From: Halothece sp. PCC 7418
Lineage (GTDB): Bacteria > Cyanobacteriota > Cyanobacteriia > Cyanobacteriales > Rubidibacteraceae
Assembly: GCF_000317635.1 (NCBI RefSeq)
Contig: NC_019779.1
Span: 1,178,001-1,242,000 of the forward strand
DNA length: 64,000 bases
Direction of reading: 5' to 3'
The position numbers and the translations under genes are program-made. Shown here piece after piece: positions 7,124 to 32,240 of the stretch (within the stretch, counting starts at the first letter, position 1; every line of letters begins with the position of its first letter). The notes beneath the pieces are model-generated. The model saw nothing but the letters and a program-made list of their open reading frames with translations, ran no database searches and was not told the origin of the DNA.

Positions 7124-8133
7124 GAAAGTTTTGTTGGGAGATGATTCTCATCAATTTCAATGACTAGATCGACCCCTCGCCTACTTTCGATTAAGGGAGT
7201 TATAAATAATTCAGGATGCAGCGATCGCCAAAAGTATTCCACAAACTGATCAATCTCTGCTGCACTCATTCCTGATTTTCCTTGGGCGATCATTTTTTGT
7301 TCTGCTTCTTTGCGTAATCTTTGACTCAAACGGTAATCAACAGGAGACAAAATAATTAATCCATCTAAACGATTCCACAAGGGAAGATAAGCGGTTAAAC
7401 GACGATTATTATCTTTTGCAAACTGACGATCGGCTTCCGTTGTAATCGGTGGCGGTGGCGATTCAAAAACGCTTTCTGCGACGGGTTGAACGCCAATAAA
7501 CCAGCCTTCAAATAGTAAGATATCAATGGGTTGGTGAATGATTTCTGGCGTAGCGCGATCGCCCATTCCATTAAATGCTGACTTATCAAATCGCGGAATT
7601 GAAATGGGTATTTTTCCCTCTCGAATTTGGTCTAATAATTCAATACCAATCTCAACATCATGGGTTCCAGGAGGACCCCTCCAGACTAATCTTGGATCGT
7701 CTTTTTGTAGTTGTTGACGATCAGCATAAGTTTTATATAAATCATCAATGGAAAGCGTCACCGTATGATATCCCAGTTCATTTAAAAGTAAACGCAGAAT
7801 CGTTGAGAGGGTAGTTTTTCCTGTTCCCTGAAGCCCGAGAATTCCTTGGATGATCGCTGAAGGTTTCTGGTCTTTTTTAGCTGCAATTTGTAAGGCTAAA
7901 GGAAGCCACACTTTCCACAATAAGTCTAAACGGTCTGCTTCTGATAAGCGAATATCAGAACAATAATGCTTAATTGCTGAGTATGCTGTAGGAAAAAAAT
8001 CAAGCTCTTTTTGTATAGATGGTTCAGGGGACAGCAAGCGCGATTTTGCTAGTGAGACTACTTCTTCTTGAGTAATCCCTTGCTGGTCTATAACTTTACT
8101 GAGAGCAGGAATTATAAAGTTTTTTGAATTCAT
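7120..8133 (-). CDS. glyK: D-glycerate 3-kinase (plant/cyanobacterial type)
   Basis: A 337-residue P-loop kinase. Walker A is GLQGTGKTT near residue 99, followed by LSIDDLYKTYADR near 127 and the WRGPPGTHD motif near 149 that marks the GLYK family. PRFDKSAFNGMGDR and LLFEGWFIG follow. The enzyme phosphorylates glycerate to 3-phosphoglycerate, the last step of photorespiration, returning carbon to the Calvin cycle. It appears monocistronic, with VapC downstream of its promoter region on the same strand and the TldE-like gene converging at its 3' end. Confidence 0.88.
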   Translation of the reverse strand: MNSKNFIIPALSKVIDQQGITQEEVVSLAKSRLLSPEPSIQKELDFFPTAYSAIKHYCSDIRLSEADRLDLLWKVWLPLALQIAAKKDQKPSAIIQGILGLQGTGKTTLSTILRLLLNELGYHTVTLSIDDLYKTYADRQQLQKDDPRLVWRGPPGTHDVEIGIELLDQIREGKIPISIPRFDKSAFNGMGDRATPEIIHQPIDILLFEGWFIGVQPVAESVFESPPPPITTEADRQFAKDNNRRLTAYLPLWNRLDGLIILSPVDYRLSQRLRKEAEQKMIAQGKSGMSAAEIDQFVEYFWRSLHPELFITPLIESRRGVDLVIEIDENHLPTKLS

Positions 8134-8196
8134 AAAATATCCAAGACTAATATAAAAATCTTACTAGAATTTAATATATTAATACTGCTTCAAACC

Positions 8197-8601
8197 TCAC
8201 AATTTAATCCAGTTTTCTACATTTAACTGCTTAATCCGTTTAAATTCTTTTTCATTATTAGTGATCAAAGTTAAACTATATGAAAGTGCTATAGCAGCAA
8301 TTTGTAAATCCATCGGTCCAATGATTTTTCCTTCTTGTTCTAAGATCGCGCGGATATAGCCACACCAATCGGCAGCACCTTCATCAAACGGTAAAACTTC
8401 CAGAGGAGAAACAAACTGACGGATTGCTTGTCGATTGACCTCCAAAAGTTGACTTTTATAAACCCCATACATCAATTCATAAAGAGTAATCGTTGATATA
8501 CAAATCTCTCCAACTTGATAGTCTTGGAGTCGTTCTAGCACAGATGGAGGTTGCTTTTTGATAATGTAGATGCAGATATTAGTGTCTAATAAAACTTTCA
8601 T
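8197..8601 (-). CDS. vapC: VapC-type PIN-domain toxin
   Basis: A 134-residue PIN-domain ribonuclease. The acidic active-site residues are Asp in KVLLDTNICIY near the N-terminus, Glu in TLYELMYG near 42, Asp in GPMDLQIAA near 97 and Asn/Glu in TNNEKEF near 116. Such toxins cleave RNA and are held inactive by a partner antitoxin. The ATG at 8601 overlaps the antitoxin stop (ATGA), which favours it over the TTG one codon upstream. The coupled upstream AbrB-like gene makes this a standard VapBC module. Confidence 0.88.
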   Translation of the reverse strand: MKVLLDTNICIYIIKKQPPSVLERLQDYQVGEICISTITLYELMYGVYKSQLLEVNRQAIRQFVSPLEVLPFDEGAADWCGYIRAILEQEGKIIGPMDLQIAAIALSYSLTLITNNEKEFKRIKQLNVENWIKL

Positions 8602-8834
8602 CAAAACATATCTTCCCTAGTATCAAAAGGAAGTTGTTCGGGACGTTCTTCCAGAAAATCTTCTGAAAATAACTCTAGTGAATCCAGCAGGTCATCAAAC
8701 CCCTCCGAGACAGGTTCAATGAGAAGTCCTCTCCCATATCGAGAAATTTTCACTCGCTTTCCAGAAAGTCGATAATCTCGTGGAATTCTAACTTCTTGGG
8801 AATACCCATGCTTAGAAAGACGTGTATATTGCAT
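8601..8834 (-). CDS. vapB: VapB-type AbrB-fold antitoxin
   Basis: A 77-residue antitoxin with an N-terminal swapped-hairpin AbrB/SpoVT domain (MQYTRLSKHGYSQEVRIP, then GKRVKISRYGRGLLIEP) and an acidic C-terminal tail expected to wrap the toxin. I chose ATG at 8834 because it has a good ribosome site (GAAAAGG, 2-3 bases before ATG) and because the promoter -10 at 8871-8876 would put the transcript start very near the alternative ATG at 8858. It is transcribed with vapC through a 4-bp overlap. Autorepression through the palindrome upstream is likely. Confidence 0.82.
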   Translation of the reverse strand: MQYTRLSKHGYSQEVRIPRDYRLSGKRVKISRYGRGLLIEPVSEGFDDLLDSLELFSEDFLEERPEQLPFDTREDMF

Positions 8835-8849
8835 AGCCTTTTCATTTGT

Positions 8850-8876
8850 AATGTACATTTATCCATGTACATTATA
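8850..8876 (-). promoter_or_regulatory. vapBC operator palindrome overlapping a -10 box
   Basis: AATGTACAT (8850-8858) and ATGTACATT (8865-8873) form a perfect 9-bp inverted repeat with a 6-bp spacer; each arm also contains the palindrome ATGTACAT. On the minus strand TATAAT occupies 8876-8871 and overlaps one arm. This is what an autoregulated VapBC promoter would look like. Confidence 0.65.
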
Positions 8877-8884
8877 AATCAATT

Positions 8885-8929
8885 CCTAAAAAAAGAGGGG
8901 AGAAACTAATATTTTGCTTCTTCCCCTCT
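8885..8929 (-). terminator. Rho-independent terminator of dxs
   Basis: Arms AGAGGGGA (8894-8901) and TCCCCTCT (8922-8929) form an 8-bp stem. Read on the minus strand it is followed by a run of seven T (8893-8887). It lies directly downstream of the dxs stop and ahead of vapB. Confidence 0.75.
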
Positions 8930-8955
8930 CTTAACTCACTTGGAATCAATGATTC

Positions 8956-10872
8956 CTATTTAACAACTGCTGAGGTGGGTGTTTCCTGTTGGAAGAAAGT
9001 GGATAAAACTTGTTCTGCAATTTGAGAACTATTTAATCCTAAATCAGCGATCGCTTCTTCAGGTTTCGCATGATCCACTAACTGATCGGGAACGCCAAAG
9101 CGCTTCACAGGGACTAAAATATTGTTGTCCATGAAGGCTTCCGTTACGGCTGACCCAAAGCCACCCATTAAACACCCTTCTTCTAAGGTGGCGACGCGCC
9201 CAATTTTTTGCGCGAGAGGGAAGATTAAATCGGTATCTAAGGGCTTAACGAAACGAGAATTGACGACAGTGGCTTCAATGCCGTGTTCACTGAGAATTTC
9301 AGCAGCTTGCATTGCTGTAGAAACCATAGTTCCATAGCCTAAGAGCAGAATATCATCTCCATTGCGGAGAATTTCGCCTTTGCCAATTTCAATCGGCTCC
9401 CAGCCTTCTTCCATGAGGGGAACACCAATGCCATTGCCACGAGGATAACGCATCGCGATCGCGCCATCGGTATAATTAATCCCAGTCACCGTCATCCGTT
9501 GTAATTCTGCTTCATCTTTCGGGGCCATTACGACCATATTCGGAAGACAGCGCAGATAAGCAATATCATACATACCTTGGTGAGTGGGGCCATCGGCACC
9601 AACAATTCCCGCGCGATCTAAACAGAAGAAAACGGGTAAGTTTTGAATACAGACATCATGAATAATCTGGTCATACGCCCGTTGTAGAAACGTGGAGTAA
9701 ATTGCAGCCACAGGGCGCATTCCTTCGCAAGCTAGACCTGCAGCCAGAGTAACCGCGTGTTGTTCCGCAATCCCCACATCCACATACTGATCAGGGAGTT
9801 TTTGCTGGAGTTTATCTAAACCAGTTCCCGTCGCCATTGCTGCGGTAATCCCGATAATTTTGGGATTACTTTCTGCAAGTTTGGTGAGAGTATGGGCAAA
9901 AACTTTACAATATTTCGGCGGTTTCGGTTTGCTAGAGGGCTGGGCTTTACCCGTCGCGATGTTAAACGCACTTTGGGCATGATATCCCACTTGGTCTTTT
10001 TCCGCGATCGCGTAACCTTTTCCTTTCGTCGTCGCCACATGGACTAACACAGGACCAGTCACTTGTTCCGCCTGTCTGAAAGTATGAATTAACTCACTTA
10101 AGTTATGTCCATCAATGGGACCAAAATATTTAAAGCCTAATTCTTCAATCACCGCGCCCACTTTGGGAACAGCCAACCGTTTCATCCCTTCTTTGACTCG
10201 TTCCATTTCAGGGGTTAAAGATTCGCCAAAGAAAGGTAAATGTTTAAATTGTTCTTCTAAATTGTCGCTTAAAAACTGCATCGGTGGGGATAAGCGCACC
10301 TTATTCAGATAACGAGAAATCGCCCCCACATTAGGAGAAATCGACATCTCATTATCATTCAACACCACCATTAAATTCGTTTTGGGTAAATGTCCTGCAT
10401 GGTTAATGGCTTCTAACGCCATACCACCCGTTAAAGCGCCATCACCGATGACAGAAACGACCTTAAACTCTTCGCCTTTGGCATCTCGCGCTAAAGCCAT
10501 TCCTAACCCCGCAGAAATGCTTGTGGAGGCGTGTCCAGCCCCAAAATGGTCAAAAGGGCTTTCACAGCGTTTGAGATAGCCAGCAATGCCATCTTTTTGG
10601 CGTAGGGTATGGAAATTATGATACCGTCCTGTAATCATCTTATGGGGATAGGCTTGGTGTCCCACATCCCAAATCACTTTATCGCGGTCTAAATCTAGAG
10701 TTTGATATAAGCCGAGGGTTAGTTCAACCACGCCTAAACCGGGTCCAAGGTGTCCGCCACTGGTGGAAACCGTTTCCAGATGTTTTTCCCGAATTTGTCG
10801 GGCGATGGTTTCCAATTCACGAATGGATAAACCGTGCAACTGGTTCGGATGGGTAATTTCGCTAATGTGCAT
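8956..10872 (-). CDS. dxs: 1-deoxy-D-xylulose-5-phosphate synthase
   Basis: A 638-residue thiamine-diphosphate enzyme that joins pyruvate and glyceraldehyde 3-phosphate in the first step of the MEP pathway, which supplies carotenoids, phytol and quinone side chains. The N-terminal half has [17 protein letters not shown] (near 36), [11 protein letters not shown] and the ThDP motif [15 protein letters not shown] near 143, closing with NDNEMSIS. The middle has GYHAQSAFN; the C-terminal transketolase domain has [17 protein letters not shown] and [18 protein letters not shown]. Length is normal. It is transcribed alone, with a clear terminator after the stop, and its promoter faces the ABC ATPase gene. 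Confidence 0.95.
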
Positions 10873-11085
10873 AGGTTGCGTTATTTTACAAGTGCTAGCG
10901 TTTGGTTTAGCTGTATTGTCTTTTCTCTACTGTAAAGGATTTAAACTCGCTAATTCCTCTACTTTGTTGCAAAATGCAATATGGTCATTAGTCATTGGTC
11001 TTATGTTCTCTCTCTTGGTATCTGGTAACTGATCACTGATAATAGGGAACAATAAATATGATCGTGTTCTAGATAAAGATTTAAG

Positions 11086-12075
11086 ATGGATTCAGTCACC
11101 TCTCAACCGAACATCTCTCCTGTTGACCAAGAAGCCCCTCGCGTTGTTCAAACTTGGGAACTGAAAAAAGTCTATCGCACTGGATTCTGGTTAAATCAAA
11201 CTGTTGAATCTTTAAAAGGGTGTAGTCTGACTGTTTATGAAGGGGAAACCTTCGGCTTGCTTGGCCCCAATGGTGCTGGGAAAACAACCCTCTTAAAAAT
11301 TTTGTTGGGTATTGTCCGACGGAGTTCGGGACGCGCTGTTTTATTAGGAAAACCCATTGGCGATCGCGCTGTAAAACAAAAATTAGGGTATCTCCCCGAA
11401 AATCCCTATCTCTACGATTATCTTACCGCTTGGGAGTTCCTTCAATTTACAGCAGGGCTTTTTCAAATTCCTGCTAGCACCCAAAAGCAACGGATTCCCG
11501 AACTGATTGATCAAGTGGGATTAGACCGCAAGACAGCGAAAAAGAAACAAATGCGCCAATACTCCAAGGGGATGTTACAACGAGTTGGGATGGCACAAGC
11601 TCTGATCAATGATCCCGAAGTGGTATTCTTAGATGAACCAATGTCAGGTTTAGACCCCATTGGACGTTATCAAATGCGTCAGATTATCTTACATCTCAAA
11701 GAACGAGGAAAAACCATCTTTTTTAATTCTCATGTTTTAGCCGATGTCGAACAAATCTGCGATCGCGTTGCTATTTTAGCTCAAGGAGAAATTATTGCCT
11801 CTGGTTCTCTCAATGAACTCTTAGGAAGTGAAGACACCTATCAAGTCGTTGGAATCGGGGGAAATCCAGAGAAGTTAAAACAATGGGTGAGTAACCTTGA
11901 CTTTCAAGAAAATCGTTGGTCTGGTCAACTCCTCACCCACCACAATCTTGATCATTTTTTAGCACAAGTGGCTCATAGCAATGGCAAAATTTTACAATTA
12001 AAGCTAGCGCGAATGTCTCTAGAAGACTTTTTCTTGCAAGAGTTACATAAAAAAGGGATTCAAACCAGTAAGTAG
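11086..12075 (+). CDS. ABC transporter ATP-binding protein, orphan
   Basis: A 329-residue ATPase of the DrrA/CcmA type. Walker A is GPNGAGKTTLLK near residue 58, the signature is YSKGMLQRVG near 162, Walker B is VVFLDEPMSGLDP near 183 and the switch histidine sits in FFNSHVLADVE. About 90 C-terminal residues follow the core. The family normally pairs with an ABC-2 membrane partner, but none follows here: a repeat and a solo-TnpB element begin about 35-100 bp after the stop. The permease is either elsewhere or was displaced by insertion. The substrate is unknown. Confidence 0.85.
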   Translation: MDSVTSQPNISPVDQEAPRVVQTWELKKVYRTGFWLNQTVESLKGCSLTVYEGETFGLLGPNGAGKTTLLKILLGIVRRSSGRAVLLGKPIGDRAVKQKLGYLPENPYLYDYLTAWEFLQFTAGLFQIPASTQKQRIPELIDQVGLDRKTAKKKQMRQYSKGMLQRVGMAQALINDPEVVFLDEPMSGLDPIGRYQMRQIILHLKERGKTIFFNSHVLADVEQICDRVAILAQGEIIASGSLNELLGSEDTYQVVGIGGNPEKLKQWVSNLDFQENRWSGQLLTHHNLDHFLAQVAHSNGKILQLKLARMSLEDFFLQELHKKGIQTSK

Positions 12076-13923: not shown

Positions 13924-14724
13924 ATGAAAAATTCGGACACATCAAGGGTAAAAAGTTCGCTACTGCTTAAAAAATCTCCTATTTTCTACGTGATGTTTCC
14001 GTTAACGAGTGTCATCACCTTGAGTTTACCCGCTCAAAGTATTAGTTTATCCGAGACGAATTATTCTCTTGAACTCGATAATTTTAGTCATCAACCCGAT
14101 CGGGTGGCGGTGGAGGTTGAGGCTACTGTCAGTGCTCTTTCTTATGTTGGTTTTATCGAGACGATTGCGAGTTCTGAAGCCACTTTTATGTCTGAATCCT
14201 CCCTCATTTTTTCCCAGTCCTCTTCTGACATCAGGCTTGCTGGTGAGGGAAGTCGCTACTTCGGAAAAGCAGAAGTAAGGACACAAGCGATGGGACAATT
14301 TTCCATCGCAGCCGAAGAAGAATTCTCCTTTGATTATAAGGGATCATTTAATACGAAAGCCCTCTTCAATTTTCCAGACATCGAAGAATCAAGAACAACA
14401 GTGAATATTTCTTTACTGTTGAGTAATGAGACTCATGAAAAAGAGATTTATAACTTAAATTTTTCGAGTCATTCCTCACAAAATGCGGAAATTGCATTTG
14501 GGGGTCAGTTTCAAGAATATTTTGAAGAAGACACGCAATTCAATTTATCTGCGAAGACAGAAATTCAAAGCTGTCTTCAAAGTTTTCAAGAGGATCAGAT
14601 ATGTGATTCTTTTCCTCAAATCAATACCTCTACTGGTGTTCCGTTTAATGCTTCTGAAACATTAGGCTTGGTCTTCGCTTTGAGCTTTTTCATCGTCCGT
14701 TTGATTAAAAAGCATATAGTCTAA
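13924..14724 (+). CDS. Exported protein with PEP/PFE-CTERM-like sorting tail
   Basis: From ATG at 13924 the protein has 266 residues. It starts with a signal peptide: a basic stretch (SRVKSSLLLKKS), a hydrophobic core (FYVMFPLTSVITLSLP) and AQS as likely cleavage site. The body is rich in Ser, Glu and Phe with alternating beta-type patterns and no family I recognise. The C-terminus VPFNASETLGLVFALSF followed by RLIKKH has the short motif, hydrophobic helix and basic end of cyanobacterial PEP-CTERM variants, which are sorted to the envelope by an exosortase. The gene converges on the PpiC-like gene with a 63-bp 3' overlap. Its proximity to the export locus may be meaningful or chance. Confidence 0.6.
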   Translation: MKNSDTSRVKSSLLLKKSPIFYVMFPLTSVITLSLPAQSISLSETNYSLELDNFSHQPDRVAVEVEATVSALSYVGFIETIASSEATFMSESSLIFSQSSSDIRLAGEGSRYFGKAEVRTQAMGQFSIAAEEEFSFDYKGSFNTKALFNFPDIEESRTTVNISLLLSNETHEKEIYNLNFSSHSSQNAEIAFGGQFQEYFEEDTQFNLSAKTEIQSCLQSFQEDQICDSFPQINTSTGVPFNASETLGLVFALSFFIVRLIKKHIV

Positions 14725-15435
14725 TTCTTGAGCGAGCCAATCTTGAAACATTTCATCAAGGAGCATTTGATAAATCTCATTTGTTAGTTCTGGCTGGATA
14801 AACTTTTCTACTAAAAAAATATGATAGCCTTGTTCAGAAGCAAAAGGAGTGATGACACTGCCTGGGATTGCTTGGAAAACAAGTGTTGCTATGTTAGGTT
14901 TCAAGTCATGGCGATGAACTTTCCCCACATAGCCACACTGAATTCTCCGCTCTGGATCAACATCATATAAATGTGCAGCTTGATAAAAACTCAATTCTTC
15001 TTCTTCAATTTGATAAAAAATTTCCCATGCTAACTTTTCGTCAGCAAGAATCATTTCATACAGTAAGATTTGCTCAAATTGATGTTGATTTTGATTGAAT
15101 AAATCTGTAACAGCTTGCGAAAAAAGATGATTCGCCAGTTTGTGAGCAGCGAGATCTTCATAAATTCCAGCTTCCCAATCTTCAGGAGTGATTAATTCGT
15201 CATTTAACCACGCAAAGGTATCTTCAGCTTGTTCTAAGTGCATTTGATGACGAATTTTATCGGCTTCGGCTTGTATTTCTTCAGCACTAATTTCGAGTTG
15301 ATGATCCTGAATGGCTTGCTGAATAATTTTTTGGTGTAATATTTTGGTGCAAGTCTGTTTTAATTGAACTTGTCTTTTCAGAAACGCGACGATTTCTTCT
15401 GCTTCAATTATTTCACCTGAAACGTTAATCATCAT
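14662..15435 (-). CDS. PpiC/SurA-like peptidyl-prolyl isomerase
   Basis: A 257-residue protein with a helical SurA_N-like region (residues 1-140, rich in Gln/Glu helices) and a parvulin-type domain. Its hallmarks are the IQCGYVGKVHRHDLKPNI block near 178, VFQAIPGSVITPF near 201 and GYHIFLVEKF near 218. No signal peptide or lipobox is visible, so a cytoplasmic or exporter-linked role is likely. Similar rotamase genes accompany HlyD and C39-peptidase ABC exporters in cyanobacterial peptide clusters. It is the last gene of the minus-strand locus, 130 bp after the peptide gene, and a hairpin between them may lower its expression. Confidence 0.8.
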   Translation of the reverse strand: MMINVSGEIIEAEEIVAFLKRQVQLKQTCTKILHQKIIQQAIQDHQLEISAEEIQAEADKIRHQMHLEQAEDTFAWLNDELITPEDWEAGIYEDLAAHKLANHLFSQAVTDLFNQNQHQFEQILLYEMILADEKLAWEIFYQIEEEELSFYQAAHLYDVDPERRIQCGYVGKVHRHDLKPNIATLVFQAIPGSVITPFASEQGYHIFLVEKFIQPELTNEIYQMLLDEMFQDWLAQELDYMLFNQTDDEKAQSEDQA

Positions 15436-31065: not shown

Positions 31066-31509
31066 TTAAGACGATTTTTGTTGCTTTTGACGTTGTTTTT
31101 GTAAACGTCTTTGTTGAGCAGCAATTACACCTTTGCTAACTGGAAAACCAGCAACGGGAATGACTTGGAACTCCCGTTCCGCTTCTAGCTTTTTCAGTTC
31201 AGTGTAGTCAACCCAGTGGATACAGTTAACGGGACAAGTATCAATGGCTTCTTGAATCACCTCTTCTGTATCCCCATCTTGGCGACTGACACGCGCCCGC
31301 CCATATTCTGGTTCCATATAGAAGGTATTTTGTGCAGTATGAGCGCAATGTTTACAACCAATGCAGGTTAACTCATCCACATAGACTCCCTTCTCTCGAA
31401 AAAATCCCCCTAACTCGGGTTCATAACCAGAACGGTTGGGATTATGGCGTAGAATACCGCCCAATTCAGGTTCTAAGCCTGAACGGTTGGGATTTTCTAA
31501 GTCAGACAT
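31066..31509 (-). CDS. 4Fe-4S ferredoxin with duplicated N-terminal motif
   Basis: A 147-residue ferredoxin. One cluster-binding set is clear: YVDELTCIGCKHCAHTAQNT near 46-65 and DTCPVNCIHWVDY near 92. This is a single 4Fe-4S site of the cyanobacterial type often found with Ycf35. The N-terminus holds NPNRSGLEPELGG and NPNRSGYEPELGG, a near-perfect duplication of 13 residues. The C-terminus is basic and Gln/Lys-rich (QQRRLQKQRQKQQKSS). The start overlaps the ycf35 stop (TAATG). It is probably an electron carrier for a pathway shared with its operon partners. Confidence 0.85.
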   Translation of the reverse strand: MSDLENPNRSGLEPELGGILRHNPNRSGYEPELGGFFREKGVYVDELTCIGCKHCAHTAQNTFYMEPEYGRARVSRQDGDTEEVIQEAIDTCPVNCIHWVDYTELKKLEAEREFQVIPVAGFPVSKGVIAAQQRRLQKQRQKQQKSS

Positions 31510-31895
31510 TACGCACTCCAGCGTTGAACAACAAGACGAATCGAACCATCTTCATTTTTTTGTTCTTGGGCAACTTGGAATCCTTCCTCGGCTGTTGCAT
31601 TCATAACGGTGTGGTACGCATACCGTTGGCTCACTTGGTTGATAAAGCCATTCACGGTTAACGGTTGTTGCCAGTATTGTAAATCAGCAACGAGTTCGTA
31701 TTCGCTACCATTCCACCGAAAGCCGACATCGTATTGATTGTCCTGTTCAATAACAACTTCTGCGCTATGGGTTTGCCCTTGATAACCGCGAACGGTTGCA
31801 GGACCTTCTTTCCAGTCAATCTCTAAGTCGCTGAGAGCAGCTTTTAAGGAAGACAGATTCCGAATTTGGGTTTTAATTTGGCTAAAGTGTGACAT
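31509..31895 (-). CDS. ycf35: Ycf35 (DUF1257) protein
   Basis: A 128-residue protein starting MSHFSQIKTQIRNLSSLKAA with VRGYQGQTHSAEVVI near 35 and DVGFRWNGSEYELVADLQYW near 56, the marks of Ycf35/DUF1257. It is widely conserved in cyanobacteria and red-lineage plastids, and its function is not settled. Its stop overlaps the ferredoxin start, and the DUF2997 gene precedes it, a recurrent three-gene arrangement that suggests a shared redox role. Confidence 0.88.
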   Translation of the reverse strand: MSHFSQIKTQIRNLSSLKAALSDLEIDWKEGPATVRGYQGQTHSAEVVIEQDNQYDVGFRWNGSEYELVADLQYWQQPLTVNGFINQVSQRYAYHTVMNATAEEGFQVAQEQKNEDGSIRLVVQRWSA

Positions 31896-31959: not shown

Positions 31960-32175
31960 TTACCAAGAGGTTGTCGTGGTTTGCGTGGTTGTTGTGGTAG
32001 AGTCAACGGTGTTTTGGGCAAAATATTCTGAGGTTTGCTCTTGCGAAACCACGTTGCCGAGTTGTGCTTCGATCGCTGCTGTTACTTCCATACAAGAGTT
32101 ACCAACAATGCCAGTAACTTTTTCCTCAACTCGCCCGTCAGGACGAATAATGAATTCTAGGGTTTCCATGCTCAT
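31960..32175 (-). CDS. DUF2997 small protein
   Basis: From ATG at 32175 the protein has 71 residues. METLEFIIRPDGRVEEKVTG and NSCMEVTAAIEAQLGNV are the DUF2997 core; the C-terminus is a Thr/Gln tail (TTTTTQTTTTSW). The longer frame to 32220 has no family similarity in its extra residues. METLEF at 32169 is an equally possible start. It leads the DUF2997-ycf35-ferredoxin operon. Confidence 0.8.
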   Translation of the reverse strand: MSMETLEFIIRPDGRVEEKVTGIVGNSCMEVTAAIEAQLGNVVSQEQTSEYFAQNTVDSTTTTTQTTTTSW

Positions 32176-32240
32176 AAGATCTTGATGGTCGGTTATAGAT
32201 GAAGAAAAAACTGAGGGCAAGATAAAGTTTGATTACACTC

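Follow-up and report, generated by a model that had tools for sequence, protein, structure and literature searches.

A tandem tag at the N-terminus of the cyanobacterial ferredoxin Fed7: an old, conserved repeat and a candidate docking label for Ycf35-type proteins

Why should a small ferredoxin carry nearly the same peptide twice in succession ahead of its cluster domain? The question is raised by a 147-residue [4Fe-4S] ferredoxin encoded on the reverse strand at 31066..31509 of the window, that is, of the 64,000-nucleotide stretch of Halothece sp. PCC 7418 analysed here (NC_019779.1, positions 1,178,001 to 1,242,000); the protein begins MSDLENPNRSGLEPELGGILRHNPNRSGYEPELGGFFREKGVYVDELTCIGC. 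The first-pass annotation of this DNA had described a duplicated 13-residue motif at the N-terminus and had proposed that it might be either a docking handle for the neighbouring Ycf35 protein or a recent tandem duplication. That the protein is a ferredoxin was confirmed by its Pfam match to Fer4_13 (66.9 bits against a cut-off of 24.5). This single-cluster 4Fe-4S domain occupies residues 44-99 (31213..31380, reverse strand) and contains Cys 49, 52, 55, and 92, plus Cys 96, which lies four residues past the last cluster cysteine just as C100 follows C96 in the Synechocystis protein; both C92 and C96 are invariant in a Fed7 alignment of 36 rows.

The gene immediately upstream, ycf35 (31509..31895, reverse strand), was identified from the open reading frame list and from Pfam as encoding a DUF1257 protein (PF06868, 157.7 bits against a cut-off of 22.2), and its stop codon shares a single base with the ferredoxin start in the sequence TAATG. 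It is preceded by a DUF2997 gene identified in the same way (31960..32220, reverse strand), which was taken from a TTG and for which an inner ATG may be the true start. This order, DUF2997-ycf35-fed7, with fed7 as the third gene, is that of the published cluster g, and it is on this place in the cluster that the identification of the ferredoxin as Fed7 (sll0662) rests. In the available part of the source, cluster g is tabulated for most cyanobacterial genomes (PMC4284462).

The two 13-residue copies (residues 6-18, 31456-31494, and residues 23-35, 31405-31443) differ at a single position, where one has L and the other Y. The period of the repeat, however, is 17 residues (51 nt), with the units abutting without a gap and with 13 of 17 positions identical by eye, and the true repeat unit is 17 residues around an EPELGG core rather than 13. 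The distal unit, NPNRSGLEPELGGILRH, consists of residues 6-22 (31444..31494, reverse strand) and the proximal unit, NPNRSGYEPELGGFFRE, of residues 23-39 (31393..31443, reverse strand); the latter is followed by a lysine, then by GVYVDE, and then by the cluster cysteines, the first of which lies 19 residues after the beginning of the proximal EPELGG. In 464 kb of the same genome (the window and twenty further stretches of 20 kb, all lying outside the second DUF1257 locus described below), Fed7 alone among 422 kept open reading frames has two [VEIL]LGG motifs within its first 80 residues. Since it is unique in this respect, and since the arrangement is kept in most of the orthologues (see below), the repeat is real and goes beyond chance. 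A search of solved structures with the 36-residue tag (phmmer) gave no match up to E 10, in line with the earlier remark that such a tag is unusual in ferredoxins, although within the Fed7 family it is the rule.

How widely is the repeat kept? A search for Fed7 was positive in each of 40 genomes, its own included, and in 92 of 194 genomes across the phylum, with 86 strong matches within the class and six weak ones outside it. The N-termini were read in 109 genomes at one locus each, a count that excludes two of the weak out-of-class matches, which have no tag (L110 and L111); the other four are not among the N-termini read. When a relaxed pattern is applied, two copies of the tag are present in 94 of the 109 proteins, and the remaining 15 have one, the proximal. 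The register is equally constant: all 109 proximal tags begin 19 residues ahead of the first cluster cysteine, and of the 94 two-copy proteins 93 have a period of 17 and one a period of 18. As to sequence, 97 of the 109 proximal cores read EPELGG, while all 109 have a G two residues ahead of the core and 103 have an R three residues past the GG; 79 of the 94 distal cores read EPELGG, some distal copies being worn (e.g., KPELGE). Moreover, ycf35 lies on the same strand and within a few kb of fed7 at each of the 109 loci and at each of 80 named loci, the best 80 of 555 matches.

The single-copy proteins are unevenly distributed. Twelve of the 15 come from genomes of one family, which, to judge from genome size and sequence, look like picocyanobacteria, one groups with Pseudanabaena and one with Gloeomargaritales (both groupings being taken from the copy-number tree discussed below), and one belongs to the window's own order. 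Among the best 80 of 555 matches, a sample biased by a query of the single-copy kind, 66 named genomes have a two-copy and 14 a one-copy Fed7; twelve of these 14 are the nearest to the query and are mostly Pseudanabaena or uncultured, and two are of the Gloeomargarita type. Several single-tag proteins (L093-L104) have a further N-terminal motif, approximately DPxxAFE, that precedes the tag, and one of them (L099) seemingly has two. A metagenome-assembled contig titled Chloroflexaceae (L173) contains the cyanobacterial cluster, with proteins the same as those of L107/G018, and is probably misbinned.

When did the duplication occur? Within the window gene, ten residues agree between the aligned 17-residue frames, and the same codon is used in just two of these ten; the search pattern itself dictates the P, E, L, and G columns of this comparison, which carry no evidential weight. 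Like-placed copies compared across six genomes of the genus have DNA identities of 82% and 79%, versus 62% when the two copies within a genome are compared. Because so few codons are the same, because the repeat is conserved in orthologues, and because like-placed copies are the closer ones, the duplication is, as judged from these comparisons, old and held by selection at the level of the protein. On a quick tree, a single change in copy number suffices, the tree being weak, with a long branch, and built from 37 of the 55 usable loci (ycf35 was missed in 62 of 117, and the single-copy G026 is absent).

The recent tandem duplication considered in the first-pass annotation, which had named a single copy in all relatives as the sign of a neutral event (a result that was not obtained), is ruled out by the 94 two-copy orthologues and by the DNA identities. 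That the repeat is functionless, a neutral or recent duplication, is barely conceivable: the variation in copy number would be in keeping with it, but the repeat is old and is conserved both in sequence and in register.

If the repeat is selected, one explanation might be sought in the structure of Fed7 itself. An AlphaFold prediction for Fed7 alone, from 36 aligned sequences, gave pLDDT values of 41-58 for residues 1-40 and of 86-94 for residues 41-100 (in blocks of ten), with the five models varying considerably (mean pLDDT 78 down to 54), and the tagged tail is predicted to be of low order. The fold of the ferredoxin domain matches that of Desulfovibrio africanus ferredoxin I with a TM score of 0.91 by target length. 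The tail could be a structural cap, lying on the cluster domain or on a second Fed7 chain and tuning stability or redox potential; indeed, the exact 17-residue period and the fixed distance of -19 are stricter than most flexible linkers require. Such a cap is nevertheless unlikely given the low pLDDT of the tail, the fact that the ferredoxin domain alone matches complete ferredoxins in fold comparison, and the existence of the 15 proteins that manage with one copy. Another possibility is based on the LGG sequence. In some exported peptides, the leader ends in GG, and the tail might similarly be removed at a double-glycine-type processing site; however, a cut needs neither exact spacing from the cluster nor conservation past the GG, where the arginine is almost constant, and processing is a very improbable explanation.

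A natural read-through of adjacent ycf35 and fed7 genes (L169), with the stop read as Q and with 69 rows, was modelled with a view to docking; in this model Ycf35 was folded, its blocks scoring 83-97, and the ferredoxin part was unfolded (32-61), save for a C-terminal helix (86-88). The Ycf35 fold from this model had no match in the PDB with E up to 0.001. CpcN was considered as a relative of Ycf35 and was set aside, its sequence match (E 0.012) being judged too weak.

Is a tag of this type confined to Fed7? The genome has four DUF1257 matches, one of which is a short fragment with a stop. The second DUF1257 locus (L220, C1:2456000-2472000; 7277-11717 and 14215-15219 of that stretch) also contains genes for an AAA ATPase, a DUF2997 protein, and three proteins with a DAVLGG tag, namely, a KGK-domain protein with one copy, an LRV-repeat protein with two, and an FGE-sulfatase protein with two. 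All three matches to the DAVLGG N-terminus in this genome lie within 8 kb at this locus, the third being weak and in a short remnant; a 47-residue frame corresponding to a truncated copy of the start of the tagged FGE protein was noted at C1:2472264 (L299). An AAA gene adjoins both the second and the third DUF1257 genes.

A scan of the whole genome (4.18 Mb) for the codons of [DE][PA]-x-L-G-G, written as GANSCNGNNYTNGGNGG, gave ten sites, compared with three for the reversed pattern used as a control. Fed7 accounts for two of the ten; four more belong to the second DUF1257/AAA locus, where they fall in three genes and in the remnant, and the last four are internal to other proteins, which we take to be one RecN-like protein, two DnaJ-type chaperone-like proteins, and one protein like a large enzyme. 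The two in DnaJ-like-looking proteins are at C1:2531433 and 3344933 (L300 and L301), and Fed7 has been reported to bind a DnaJ-like protein. A proposed xLGG class, defined by an N-terminal [DE][PA]xLGG, as a rule in two copies, encoded near a DUF1257 gene, would comprise Fed7 and three intact proteins of this genome, one of them single-copy. Homology of the Fed7 and DAVLGG tags at the profile level is unsupported, hhalign having aligned only three columns, LGG alone, with a probability of 0.8%. A known defence system at the second locus was also considered and rejected; PADLOC matched the AAA protein to IetA and TRIP13 and the LRV protein, weakly, to Cas11a, and there was no PADLOC match on the other five proteins scanned. 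In a tagged GUN4 protein of another genome (L238:11404-12222), PADLOC reported PD-T4-6 over the GUN4 region with an E of 2.6e-39.

The association of tag and DUF1257 gene extends beyond this genome. A DAVLGG...VLGG N-terminus was found in 20 of the 194 genomes (E up to 0.001), two of which (G191 and G153) have weak or broken-frame matches. Among the matches listed, 18 of these 20 genomes have, in addition to the DUF1257 gene linked to Fed7, an extra one, and two do not; from the other side, 21 genomes have an extra gene among the matches listed, three of them with no tagged protein found. These extra genes ('type 2') were sorted by eye among the matches listed, down to about 81 bits, and some may be missed. 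For the 89 class-level genomes (a count read off the order of the Fed7 search listing), co-occurrence of the tag with an extra DUF1257 gene among the matches listed has a Fisher p of about 8e-14, uncorrected for kinship. The two genes are less than 10 kb apart in 15 of the 20 tagged genomes, 13 kb apart in one, and on different contigs in two drafts; over all 50 tagged matches, 28 are within 10 kb of an extra DUF1257 gene and 22 are not. A motif scan of 20 stretches (L237-L256) found a total of 18 tagged genes in 11 of them, and a Pfam scan of ten of these genes gave LRV in three, GUN4 in two, FGE-sulfatase in two, WD40 in two, and pentapeptide repeats in one, the last with a single tag. The cargo domains are diverse, comprising GUN4, WD40, LRV, FGE-sulfatase, pentapeptide, and KGK.

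DUF1257 itself occurs in 88 of the 89 class-level genomes among the matches listed, one of these 88 having fragments only, and Fed7 is absent from three of the 89. In two of these, which belong to one genus, DUF1257 is gone (G172) or reduced to stop-bearing fragments (G206), and of DUF2997 a remnant or nothing is left. The third (G200) has just other kinds of DUF1257 gene among the matches listed, and in it the gene for a twin-LGG pentapeptide protein overlaps the end of a ycf35-like gene. Beyond the class, ten DUF1257 places were read in nine other genomes of the phylum, and no twin tag was found near any of them (for eight, within about 1.5 kb per side), nor near the DUF1257 place read in G051. 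At two loci of a third DUF1257 kind, an AAA gene adjoins and there is no tagged gene.

That unrelated proteins encoded beside ycf35 relatives bear a similar tag suggests a docking label common to them, not a chance event of recent date. Among possible readers Ycf35 comes first, because it is the constant neighbour of fed7 and because its paralogues accompany the other tagged proteins. We give an even chance to the reading that the repeat is an old docking label kept by selection and most likely recognised by a reader of the Ycf35 (DUF1257) type. The label draws on observed conservation and fixed register, on age, on low predicted order, and on the linkage of N-terminal xLGG to DUF1257; that Ycf35 is the reader, that it binds directly, and that the Fed7 and second-locus tags are read in the same way is what we infer from these. 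The proposal of a docking handle for Ycf35 has gained indirect support from the tagged proteins at the second DUF1257 locus and from the co-occurrence over 194 genomes, while its element of direct binding stays at the level of inference. The mechanism might be as follows: the low-order tail would present the motif G-x-[E/D]-[P/A]-[E/V]-L-G-G twice, with constant spacing, ahead of the [4Fe-4S] domain; the tail would bind a Ycf35/DUF1257-type reader, possibly along with DUF2997 and with an AAA ATPase of the kind seen beside other DUF1257 genes; this binding would bring Fed7, a redox protein, into a complex; and the second copy of the tag might add strength or fit a second site.

Alternatively, the tag could dock another partner, either Sll1384, which is DnaJ-like, or FtrC, a ferredoxin-thioredoxin reductase protein, with the linkage to ycf35 being that of a shared operon. 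In the available part of the Synechocystis study, bacterial two-hybrid assays revealed Sll1384 and FtrC as partners of Fed7, with no test of Ycf35 mentioned, and eukaryotes were described in which DnaJ and Fed7-like domains are fused (PMC4284462). In the same source, however, C53S and a triple cysteine change weakened both the Sll1384 and the FtrC contacts, and C100S lowered the FtrC signal from 1766 to 237 (PMC4284462). These effects of cysteine changes point to the cluster domain, rather than to the tag, as the site of both contacts. Moreover, another partner would not explain why GUN4, WD40, and LRV proteins encoded close to DUF1257 genes are tagged, and such docking is unlikely.

Docking to a Ycf35-type reader is loosely in keeping with the known iron biology of Fed7, ycf35, and ycf46. 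According to the accessible text, Fed7 is needed in iron limitation in Synechocystis (PMC4284462), and in red-algal plastids, where ycf35 is known, the presence of ycf35 and ycf46 is linked to habitat and tied by the authors to iron (PMC5940233, as far as its available portion goes). In Pfam, DUF1257 is still entered as a family of unknown function, and a tag on its operon partner, together with similar tags beside its paralogues, provides a concrete binding hypothesis for this family.

Viruses carry parts of the same set of genes. A Ycf35 protein is present in fifteen phage records, and no Fed7 was found in the annotated phage collection at 1e-5. In the cyanophage P-SSM2 (L287:5802-6381), the 'hypothetical' genes PSSM2_178 and 179 are, by Pfam, DUF2997 followed by DUF1257. 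In IMG/VR, 534 stretches have a Ycf35 relative, and at the best 80 of these 534 loci, a DUF2997-like frame accompanies it in 77; at these 80, stretches of up to 4 kb yielded neither Fed7 nor [DE][PAL][VECIL]LGG, and Ycf35 therefore occurs without a tagged neighbour. Conversely, twelve IMG/VR contigs (L192-L203) encode Fed7, all twelve with one tag at the usual place; in nine the tag reads EPCLGG, with an added cysteine. In the four of these twelve records that were searched for it, all fragments, there is no DUF1257. The neighbours of two of the Fed7-bearing contigs are presumably T4-type phage genes, to judge from their appearance. In six (L193, L195-L197, L199, and L200), inspection by eye shows no ATG, GTG, or TTG in the Fed7 frame from the upstream stop as far as the tag, and an ATT start (IDPRIAFE) is possible.

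A broader version of the docking idea can be put forward tentatively, its chances being well short of even: xLGG might be a general cyanobacterial address label with which DUF1257, DUF2997, and a Ycf46-like AAA ATPase load interchangeable cargo, and of which marine viruses carry parts in order to redirect it. The cargo would be the ferredoxin and the GUN4, WD40, LRV, FGE, and pentapeptide proteins, and the viruses would hold either the reader genes (many of them) or a one-tag Fed7 (few).

How do these findings compare with known systems? Fed7/Fx7 of Synechocystis (sll0662) has the same single [4Fe-4S] cluster, the same three-gene neighbourhood (cluster g), and the same four cluster cysteines plus one, and, on the published description, no essential difference from the window protein is seen; the tag is not mentioned in the available part of that description (PMC4284462). 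Ferredoxin I of Desulfovibrio africanus (1fxr/1dax) has the same cluster-domain fold, with 46% identity over 61 columns, but the sequence match covers Fed7 residues 42-101 and none of the tagged tail. EPELGG gave nothing in open-licence PubMed Central text, and a subscription paper may describe the tag; DAVLGG found there, by title, just cotton villins and cathepsin E.

Effector-associated domains (EADs) are folded domains, whereas the xLGG tag is a short motif. The two are alike in that EADs, in the available part of the work of Kaur et al. (2020, PMC7159879), are modules by which effectors are allotted to a core system. The NTP-dependent conflict systems described in the same text are built on vWA, MoxR, and VMAP components, and neither 'ycf' nor 'lgg' occurs in the main text of that paper. 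What the accessible portion does have in common with the present loci is interchangeable cargo, with FGS, GUN4, HEAT, pentapeptide, and beta-propeller domains serving as exchangeable parts and with cyanobacteria among the hosts (PMC7159879).
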